Below are positions 14,617 to 30,960 of a DNA stretch of 32,262 nt, in pieces; positions within the stretch are counted from its first letter, which is position 1; each line of letters begins with the position of its first letter. Origin of the DNA: SAR202 cluster bacterium. Lineage in GTDB: Bacteria > Chloroflexota > Dehalococcoidia > Lucifugimonadales > VGZY01. The stretch covers positions 1 to 32,262 of the forward strand of contig VGZY01000027.1 of assembly GCA_016872355.1 (NCBI GenBank), read 5' to 3'. The notes beneath the pieces were generated by a model that searched no databases, was not told the DNA's origin, and saw only the letters and a list, made by a program, of their open reading frames with translations. The position numbers and the translations under genes were made by a program.

Positions 14617-15867
14617 ATGAACCGACCTGTTGAACGCCTTGACCTGCGCTCCCATGACATTGCGGAGGACAAACGCGAAGAGATGTTAAGGCTCTTTCCG
14701 GAGGCCCGCACTGAGGGCGGCAAGATCGACTTCGAACGTCTCAAGCTGGCGCTTGGGAATACGGTCGATGCGGGCAGGGAGCGGTACGGCATGAATTGGC
14801 CGGGCAAGGGGGACTGCTTCAAGACGATACAGGCGCCGAGCCTTGGGACTTTGCTGCCCTGTCCAAGCGAGAGCATCAACTCTGATACAACGGAGAACCT
14901 GATCATAGAGGGCGATAACCTAGAGGTGTTAAAGCTCTTACAGAAGTCCTACATGGGCAAGGTCAAGATGATATACATCGACCCGCCTTATAACACAGGC
15001 AATGACTTCATCTACCCGGACAACTACGCTGAGAGCCTTGCCACCTATCTGGAATACACCGGCCAGGTTGACGCGGAAGGCCGCAAGTTTGGCACCAACA
15101 CCGACACCGACGGTCGGTTCCACTCAAAGTGGCTGAACATGATGTACCCACGGCTATATCTGGCAAGGAATCTCCTACGGGACGACGGGGTAGTGTTCAT
15201 AAGCATAGACGAGAAGGAGCTTTCGAACCTTAAGAGCATCATGAATGAGATTTTTGGCGAAGAGTCTTTTGTAACAGTTATCACGCTACTGTGTAATCCA
15301 AAAGGTCGTTCTCAGGATAAGTACTTCGCGACTAACCATGAGTATGTTGCCGTATATAGCAAGGCACCAATGCCAAAAGGCTCCTTCTCATTGGCAAAAG
15401 ATGAAGATCAGATTAGCCAGGAATACACGGAAGAGGATGACCTCGGTAAGTTCAGGTTACTGGAGTTACGGAATACGCACAGGGAATTTGGAAAGCACAA
15501 CAGGAAGAACCTCTACTATCCGTTGTACGTCAATACTGAAAATGGGGAGGTCTCGATTGAAGCGGAGGAAGGTTACCTCAAGATTTTTCCTATTTGGGAT
15601 GACGGCTTCGAAGGATGTTGGGGATGGGAACGCCCCAGGGCATCCCGAGACGTAGCTTATCTAACTGCTCGTAATGTGAAAGATCGATGGAAAATATACC
15701 GAAAAAGCTACGCGATGGGCGCAGAGAAGATGCTCAAGACTATTTTTTTGAAAAGGACTTCTTTACCGAGCGGGGACAAAAAGCCTTTAGCGAACTGTTC
15801 GTCACGAAGACCAAAATATTCCAATCGCCCAAATCGCCTGGCCTTATTTCCAAACTGGTTGAGATAA
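14617..15867 (+). CDS. mod: Type III restriction-modification DNA methyltransferase (Mod), 5' part before frameshift
   Basis: N-terminal part of a beta-class N6-adenine methylase. The catalytic motif IV is IYIDPPYNTGNDF, after the typical NLIIEGDNLEVLKLLQKSY. Next come YLARNLLRDDGVVFISIDE and a target-recognition region to about residue 370. In frame, the protein then runs into a Ser/Arg-rich non-family tail (LKRTSLPSGDKKPLANCSS) after a T7 tract at 15743-15749. One extra T, or a -1 slip, would join it to the second frame, giving 635 aa, a normal Mod length. Bases about 15240-15800 are clearly AT-richer than the flanks, as often seen for exchanged recognition domains. Mod would methylate the site recognised with the Res subunit. 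Confidence 0.88.
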   Translation: MNRPVERLDLRSHDIAEDKREEMLRLFPEARTEGGKIDFERLKLALGNTVDAGRERYGMNWPGKGDCFKTIQAPSLGTLLPCPSESINSDTTENLIIEGDNLEVLKLLQKSYMGKVKMIYIDPPYNTGNDFIYPDNYAESLATYLEYTGQVDAEGRKFGTNTDTDGRFHSKWLNMMYPRLYLARNLLRDDGVVFISIDEKELSNLKSIMNEIFGEESFVTVITLLCNPKGRSQDKYFATNHEYVAVYSKAPMPKGSFSLAKDEDQISQEYTEEDDLGKFRLLELRNTHREFGKHNRKNLYYPLYVNTENGEVSIEAEEGYLKIFPIWDDGFEGCWGWERPRASRDVAYLTARNVKDRWKIYRKSYAMGAEKMLKTIFLKRTSLPSGDKKPLANCSSRRPKYSNRPNRLALFPNWLR

Positions 15868-16523
15868 CTCTTTCAACCGATGACGTTTTTATGGATTTCT
15901 TTGCCGGCTCAGGCACTTCTGGTCAAGCGGTTCTTGAACTCAACAGTAAGGACGGCGGAAAACGTAAATTCATTCTCGTTCAGCTCCCCGAATCTACTGG
16001 CCGTGAGGACTATCGGACTATTTCTGATATCACGAAAGCGCGTGTTGGGAAGGTCATTACCAAACTCAACCAAGATAGCGCGGAATCCAACGGGGGCAAC
16101 AAGGAAGATCGTGGGTTCCGTGTGTTCAAATTAGCAGAATCAAACTTCAAGCCGTGGGCCGCTACGGTGCCGCCAGATGCCGACGCTCTGACCGCTCAGT
16201 TGGAAATGCATGTGGAGCATTTGAGGATCGGTCGGACTGATCAAGACATCCTCTATGAGATTCTTCTGAAAAGTGGATTCCCGCTCACTGTTTCCCTTCA
16301 GACCATTCAGATTGCCGGGAAGACCGCATACTCCATTCCTAATGGAGCGCTCTTCATTTGCCTAGAACGCCATTTGACGTTGGAATCAATTCGGGCGATG
16401 GCGGAGCGCAGGCCAGCCCGTGTTGTATGCCTCGACGAAGGCTTCGCAGGAAACGACCAGCTCAAGGCTAACGCCGTCCACATATTCAGGGGCAGCGGCG
16501 TCGTCAGCTTCAAGACCGTATAG
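15687..16523 (+). CDS. mod: Type III methyltransferase (Mod), 3' part after frameshift
   Basis: This is the C-terminal part of the same methylase in the next frame. True homology begins around the T7 tract (FFEKDFFTERGQKAFSELF). It holds the S-adenosylmethionine motif I (VFMDFFAGSGTSGQAVLEL) and the family patch FILVQLPESTGREDY, and ends at FRGSGVVSFKTV. In beta-class enzymes motif I comes after motif IV, so both halves are needed for activity. The ATG at 15687 only opens the frame and is probably not used. The stop lies 9 bases before the Res gene. Confidence 0.85.
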   Translation: MENIPKKLRDGRREDAQDYFFEKDFFTERGQKAFSELFVTKTKIFQSPKSPGLISKLVEITLSTDDVFMDFFAGSGTSGQAVLELNSKDGGKRKFILVQLPESTGREDYRTISDITKARVGKVITKLNQDSAESNGGNKEDRGFRVFKLAESNFKPWAATVPPDADALTAQLEMHVEHLRIGRTDQDILYEILLKSGFPLTVSLQTIQIAGKTAYSIPNGALFICLERHLTLESIRAMAERRPARVVCLDEGFAGNDQLKANAVHIFRGSGVVSFKTV

Positions 16524-30285: not shown

Positions 30286-30343
30286 GGGGGGGCGGGCCTC
30301 GATGGCGTGGAGCGATGAATTGGGGACGGCGAGGGCGGTCCTC

Positions 30344-30406
30344 CCTCCTCTCCCTGAGGGAGAGGCCTACGGGGCCTTGTCCGTAGGGTGAGGGCTATGG
30401 CTGTTG
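30344..30406. repeat. Left inverted repeat arm of the DUF559 cassette
   Basis: A 63-base arm made of two hairpins: CTCTCCC/GGGAGAG, then CCTACGG/CCGTAGG, ending GGGTGAGGGCTATGGCTGTTG except for its last base pairings. Its reverse complement matches the right arm at 30792-30856 apart from the second hairpin stem. Confidence 0.8.
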
Positions 30407-30431
30407 GGTTTCGCTCCCGGAAATCTTAACT

Positions 30432-30803
30432 ATGAAGATAGACCGCAACATGACTTCACATGCCCGAGCGCTGCGACGTGAATCGACGCCCGCAGAAGTG
30501 GTTCTCTGGGCGAGACTGAAGGGCCGGCAACTCGGCGGGTACAAGTTCCGACGACAGCAGCCAATCGGACGGTTCGTCGCGGACTTCTTGTGCGTCGAAA
30601 GGAAGGTCGTCATTGAACTGGACGGCGGGCAGCATAACGAAGATAGTCAGCTAACGCGGGATGACGAAAGGACGCGGAACATAGAGGCCATGGGTTATCG
30701 CGTCCTGAGGTTCTGGAATATCGACGTCAGCAAGAACATTGACGGGGTTATGACCAGGATATCGGAGGCGCTGTCGGCAGAGAACGAAGCACAACAGCCG
30801 TAG
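30432..30803 (+). CDS. DUF559 (Vsr-like) endonuclease-domain protein
   Basis: A 123-aa protein of the DUF559 family with the PD-(D/E)xK-type core: LWARLKGRQLGGYKFRRQQ, FVADFLCVERKVVIELDGGQ (Asp, Glu) and YRVLRFWNIDV. It resembles very-short-patch repair endonucleases. It stands between two inverted repeat arms, and its last codons and stop lie in the right arm. ATG 30432 is preceded by GGAAA. DUF559 genes are often found singly beside short repeats, which suggests a small mobile or repeat-linked unit rather than a host repair operon. Confidence 0.9.
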   Translation: MKIDRNMTSHARALRRESTPAEVVLWARLKGRQLGGYKFRRQQPIGRFVADFLCVERKVVIELDGGQHNEDSQLTRDDERTRNIEAMGYRVLRFWNIDVSKNIDGVMTRISEALSAENEAQQP

Positions 30804-30856
30804 CCCTCACCCTTTGGGTCAAAGCACCCAAAGGCCTCTCCCTCGGGGAGAGGAGG
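30792..30856. repeat. Right inverted repeat arm of the DUF559 cassette
   Basis: A 65-base arm with hairpins CCTTTGGGTG/CACCCAAAGG and CTCTCCC/GGGGAGAG. It is the inverse of the left arm in its outer and inner blocks. The variable stem differs in sequence and length but remains fully paired. It includes the stop codon of the DUF559 gene. Confidence 0.8.
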
Positions 30857-30960
30857 AAGAGGCCCCCTACCTCCTCCGAAAACAATACACAACTCCCCTT
30901 TCCCACTTACCACCCCTCAGCCACTGCCCGTCCGAATCTGTGTAACGTGCGGACACCTCC

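Follow-up and report, generated by a model that had tools for sequence, protein, structure and literature searches.

A DUF559 nuclease gene between hairpin-bearing inverted repeats: a probable small selfish mobile element

Introduction

Why should a short nuclease gene lie between two inverted arms that each fold into two hairpins? The question is raised by a locus in a 32,262-nucleotide stretch of DNA from a SAR202 cluster bacterium (the window), whose source genome amounts to 3.07 Mb in 133 contigs. According to the original prediction the locus is REPIN-like or a small transposable cassette, and its endonuclease either has the hairpins as substrate or spreads together with them. The comparisons presented here support that reading, with the reservation that binding or cutting of the hairpins by the protein is unproven. 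We consider it probable that the locus is a small selfish mobile element, about 470 bp long, in which terminal inverted repeats enclose a DUF559 nuclease gene; that DUF559 drives the spread is the inferred part of this conclusion. We found no published link between DUF559 and hairpin repeats in the literature searched, which was open-access only, and a description elsewhere is not excluded.

Results

Both inverted arms are present in the window at the coordinates predicted, and together with the DUF559 gene that they frame they make up the cassette (Table 1). Each arm extends over about 85-90 nt, more than the 64 or so bases first assigned to it, and consists, toward the gene, of a conserved hairpin (H1), a single G, a variable hairpin (H2) and the tag GTGAGGG. 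The inverted-repeat blocks of the cassette are 79% and 88% complementary, an inner sequence beginning CTATGGCTGTTGGG... is common to the left and right sides, and the two arms align with a score of 84, compared with a maximum of 27 against the right flanks of other loci. No H1 palindrome is expected by chance in the window (100 shuffles). The H1 stem, CTCTCCC/GGGAGAG, is indeed the same on both sides, but the hairpin is not invariant as had been thought, since its loop reads TGA on the left and TCG on the right. The left variable stem, CCTACGG/CCGTAGG, was also described correctly; the right one pairs over 9 bp (CCTTTGGGT/ACCCAAAGG, loop CAAAGC) and not over 10. The stop codon of the gene, TAG at 30801-30803, falls within the extended right arm, in agreement with the prediction.

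Table 1. Positions of the cassette and its parts in the window.
Feature	Position	Strand	Evidence
Cassette: left arm, DUF559 gene, right arm	30332..30868	+	Inverted repeats I1 and I2
Left arm, terminal inverted repeat	30332..30416	+	Inverted-repeat search, arm alignment
Left H1, CTCTCCC-TGA-GGGAGAG	30348..30364	+	80 exact copies of this palindrome type genome-wide
Left H2, CCTACGG..CCGTAGG	30366..30387	+	Pairing and covariation tests
Left tag GTGAGGG, pointing to the gene	30388..30394	+	TGAGGG after H2 in 45 genomic copies
DUF559 gene (PF04480), 123 aa, Vsr/EDxHD-type nuclease	30432..30803	+	Pfam, AF2 model, structure matches
Right arm, terminal inverted repeat, holding the gene's stop codon	30782..30868	-	Inverted repeats
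Right tag, CCCTCAC on the + strand	30804..30810	-	Sequence
Right H2, CCTTTGGGT..ACCCAAAGG	30811..30834	-	Sequence; same H2 again at another locus (L204) of the same genome
Right H1, CTCTCCC-TCG-GGGAGAG	30836..30852	-	Sequence; shuffle test

The encoded protein matches PF04480 over profile positions 2-108 of 109 (E 2.4e-38) and, weakly, the MTES_1575 nuclease family, and these are its sole matches. D51, E62 and D64 of the protein are invariant residues and are inferred to belong to its active site. An AlphaFold2 model built from a 45-sequence alignment (pLDDT 85) finds its best solved counterpart in NGO0050 (3hrl; Z 15.7), and also resembles the homing endonuclease I-Bth0305I (Z 11.6, rmsd 3.2, 96 aligned) and Vsr (Z 10.4). 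A DUF559 gene has been assigned to the EDxHD homing endonuclease family (PMC9403480), and the related YcjD of E. coli has long been classed as a member of the PD-(D/E)XK superfamily (PMC1189080). The DUF559-domain protein VsrA of Caulobacter is needed for an SOS response in cells without a certain methyltransferase (PMC12907096), which fits a DNA-cutting activity in vivo. A Pfam scan detected no transposase in the cassette. PADLOC returned only weak partial matches, so that a defence role is unsupported.

The arm is one member of a repeat family of the source genome. Exact H1 palindromes occur there 80 times, as against none for the reversed control pattern, and the sampled regions of the genome hold 45 complete units of H1, H2 and TGAGGG. 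In 37 of these 45 copies, where shuffles predict 0.48, H2 can fold into a Watson-Crick stem six or more pairs long, and 23 different stem sequences are represented; when H2 halves are swapped between copies, pairing falls from 82% to 10%. In an alignment of 13 equal-length copies, pairing holds in 99% of cells and four of the eight pairs change on both sides, and the covariation score of 0.575 is reached by none of 500 shuffles and not approached in slid registers. The compensatory stem change with pairing kept, which had been noticed between the two arms of the window, is therefore general across the genomic copies. Pairing, swap and covariation results together indicate that selection or a copying mechanism preserves pairing and not sequence; the covariation lends support to the earlier argument for selection at the level of structure, and the alignments demonstrate conservation of the arm's secondary structure through compensatory change. 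The same genome also contains inverted hairpin pairs, about 230-250 bp apart, which share the arm and an inner TGAGGGCTACGGCTGTT-like sequence with the cassette and in which the DUF559 gene is absent.

The association of such arms with DUF559 genes is found well beyond this genome. We assembled the best 80 DUF559 matches to three query proteins, which are not a random draw, and called inverted arms where the local alignment score between flanks was at least 34. Arms were present at 52 of 75 DUF559 loci and in 2 of 399 shifted intervals of those loci; they were likewise present at 53 of 77 DUF559 loci and around 1 of 292 neighbouring genes (Fisher 5e-44), and the two controls agree. The groups sampled included Alpha-, Beta-, Gamma- and Deltaproteobacteria, Chloroflexota, Nitrospira and Gastranaerophilales. 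An independent and more even sample, 142 evenly drawn Alphaproteobacteria, gave inverted arms at 21 of 28 DUF559 loci and 1 of 56 controls. Arms scattered at random, without excess near DUF559 genes, would have refuted the prediction, and both samples speak against this. At the level of whole genomes, ten or more H1 palindromes occurred in 22 of the 37 Alphaproteobacteria with a strong DUF559 gene and in 1 of the 105 without (Fisher 5e-15), and that lone genome (G120) carries only a weak, broken DUF559 match.

Overall, 100 of 138 DUF559 loci have arms, with a median cassette of 474 bp. Recognisable arms are missing at about a quarter of DUF559 loci, helicase-fused copies included, and the armless helicase-fused domains serve as a negative control. 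In its strict form, GGTGAGG, the tag flanks 45 of 141 DUF559 loci on both sides in inverted orientation and none of 265 controls; a looser form, G[TGA]GAGGG, which can be satisfied by H1 itself, is so placed at 94 of 141 and again at none of 265. Two other tags were rejected, CGTC occurring around none of the 141 loci and GTAG being inverted at a background level (23 of 141 loci, 32 of 265 controls). Where a genome has eight full DUF559 copies, each paralogous cassette is framed by a matched pair of arms of its own. Cassettes with more similar proteins also tend to have more similar arms, if only weakly so (Mantel r 0.22; as high in 0 of 999 permutations). Within the limits of comparative evidence, these results show that arms and gene belong together.

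The source genome itself has five DUF559 genes, three with clear inverted arms, and one of these three has a different type of hairpin. A second DUF559 gene of the window's own genome (L018, C17:6380-6688) is framed by another type of hairpin, CTCTCTCCGACTTCAGAGAGAG, and an identical solo hairpin lies at L218:1294; the sequence identity suggests that there may be one repeat family per nuclease.

The presence of DUF559 does not fully explain the repeats in the window's own order, and that proposition was rejected. Two relatives of the order, G010 and G005, have 175 and 105 hairpins, respectively, and no DUF559 gene was found in either. Sampled G010 copies carry the same GGGTGAGGG tag and so belong to the same tagged family. 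Repeats of this kind can therefore exist without DUF559 or be moved otherwise.

Insertion of the cassette can be followed in host genes. In several genomes an open frame runs through the arms and DUF559 into conserved protein on both sides. The split or interrupted hosts, as identified by Pfam, are MetH, Mfd, HrpA, a class I tRNA synthetase, PriA, two HsdS, HsdM, PrmA and a GHMP kinase, and further HrpA again, a peptidase M14 twice at one site, and ValRS. In PDB alignments the homology of PriA and PrmA picks up again past the cassette, and PriA relatives of 84-90% identity are without it. No intein domain was detected in the interrupted proteins that were scanned. As judged from these reading frames and their relatives, the data show that the whole unit inserts, also in frame within housekeeping genes. 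The PriA loop that holds the cassette (L065) varies in length among relatives, mostly via unrelated inserts; different, partly repetitive in-frame inserts occupy it in L124, L130, L132, L134 and L135.

A single site in HrpA is known in three states. It carries the full cassette in L230-L233 and L246, and in a sixth, independently found carrier (L108); it is empty at nine loci, and L243 has a solo hairpin in frame. The prediction would also have failed had relatives displayed no gain or loss of the unit, and the present, absent and solo states of this one site meet that objection. The DUF559 proteins of the HrpA site share 74-90% identity among themselves but 51-60% with the compared cassettes elsewhere, while the HrpA host segments are 87-96% identical. 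By these identities the cassettes of the site are a site-specific lineage of patchy presence that is evolving faster than its host. Their shared position could reflect one old insertion followed by losses, and not repeated homing. At a second HrpA site, several relatives have inverted hairpin pairs without a DUF559 gene. L244 and L247 have CGTC-type palindromes in frame at that second site, where other relatives have the DUF559-type pairs. Inspection of the PriA and HrpA sites, whose boundaries are uncertain, revealed no consistent target-site duplication.

Discussion

The unit is very probably a mobile cassette whose ends are formed by the arms. That DUF559 drives the spread is a likely inference but a distinctly weaker one, as the role of the enzyme is deduced without a biochemical test on the arms. 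We propose that each end of the element would be an arm made of hairpin and G-rich tag (GGGTGAGGG type). The DUF559 protein would recognise an arm or an unoccupied related site and nick or cut it, and repair would then copy the element in, by homing or gene conversion. Solo hairpins and inverted pairs in the same genomes would be its non-autonomous copies, as REP and REPIN are for RAYTs. The in-frame cases would persist because translation can pass through the arms and the loops of the host proteins accommodate the insertion.

We favour homing-like spread somewhat over single-strand transposition, a peel-and-paste process like that of IS200/IS605 and RAYT in which DUF559 would nick exposed single strands at the foot of the hairpin or at the tag. 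Ends made of hairpin and tag in which pairing is conserved, solo and inverted-pair copies, and the lack of an obvious target duplication are all features in which the cassette resembles REP/RAYT elements (PMC3733652). However, covalent tyrosine chemistry is not expected of a PD-(D/E)XK/Vsr-type fold, and host enzymes would be needed to join the strands, which leaves this route unlikely though still in contention. It is less plausible again, and in our estimation quite improbable, that DUF559 is a passenger, or a VSP-like host repair enzyme, caught between two repeats that other enzymes move. Caulobacter VsrA, tied to DNA damage in cells without cytosine methyltransferase and proposed to be a mismatch nuclease (PMC12907096), offers a precedent for such a repair enzyme, and some hairpin-rich genomes lack DUF559; but capture should also strike other small genes, of which only one neighbouring gene in 292 is so framed, and neither the co-occurrence of gene and hairpins at the genome level nor the matched arm pairs of paralogous cassettes favours it. 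A third alternative, in which the hairpins merely regulate the gene or terminate its transcription, is scarcely tenable. In its favour, the stop codon lies within the right arm, which might act as a terminator, and hairpins beside genes are common; but the same structure also stands upstream, inverted, and in dozens of gene-less copies elsewhere, and whole units in frame within other genes contradict this reading, a regulatory side role not being excluded.

A mobile cassette that spreads through its own nuclease, the reading we prefer, has partial parallels in known systems. REP/REPIN sequences and their RAYTs (REPtrons) likewise comprise short many-copy palindromes with an unpaired tag, often in inverted pairs and also within genes (PMC3733652); there too, inverted palindromes flank a gene whose product cuts DNA. 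RAYT, however, is an HUH tyrosine transposase, unrelated to the PD-(D/E)XK/Vsr-type DUF559, and its tag is GTAG, where DUF559 elements have a GGGTGAGGG-like one. CGTC-tagged REPs and Rickettsia palindromic elements also lie in frame in genes, including repair and tRNA-synthetase genes (PMC3733652, PMC10969869), but the tag of the former is CGTC and no dedicated enzyme is known. The EDxHD or Vsr-like homing endonucleases, such as I-Bth0305I, share the fold and the patchy occupancy of conserved host-gene sites; DUF559 genes differ in that they were found without a surrounding intein, at many unrelated insertion sites, and with ends that are hairpin repeats having many solo copies. With the Vsr mismatch endonuclease and Caulobacter VsrA there is agreement in fold (Vsr) and in the DUF559 domain (VsrA, PMC12907096), but the gene in the window is boxed by mobile-looking repeats and has no methyltransferase gene directly adjoining.

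It is possible, although we put this forward only tentatively, that these cassettes belong to a class of transposable elements extending across phyla. Such elements would have a free-standing Vsr/PD-(D/E)XK nuclease as their sole enzyme, and this nuclease would recognise the hairpin ends, give rise to REP-like families, and home in frame into conserved loops of essential genes. No mover has so far been known for REP-like palindromes outside the GTAG/RAYT group, and what moves the CGTC-group REPs is an openly posed question (PMC3733652). If our reading is correct, a dedicated nuclease for a superfamily of G-tagged palindromes across phyla would be the mover of another large group. It would account for many hairpin repeats and in-frame 'junk' peptides that so far lack an explanation, and a domain of unknown function would become a mobility enzyme open to experiment.

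Two minor observations concern the remainder of the window. By eye only, two overlapping frames at 14617-16523 resemble one DNA methyltransferase gene with a frameshift, beside a helicase-like gene, and a type III restriction system is a possible interpretation of the pair. At the left end of the window, positions 207-224 (CCTCGGGGAGAGGAGGAA) repeat the outer portion of the right arm (30841-30858) without a mismatch, and this short match is probably a decayed solo arm.
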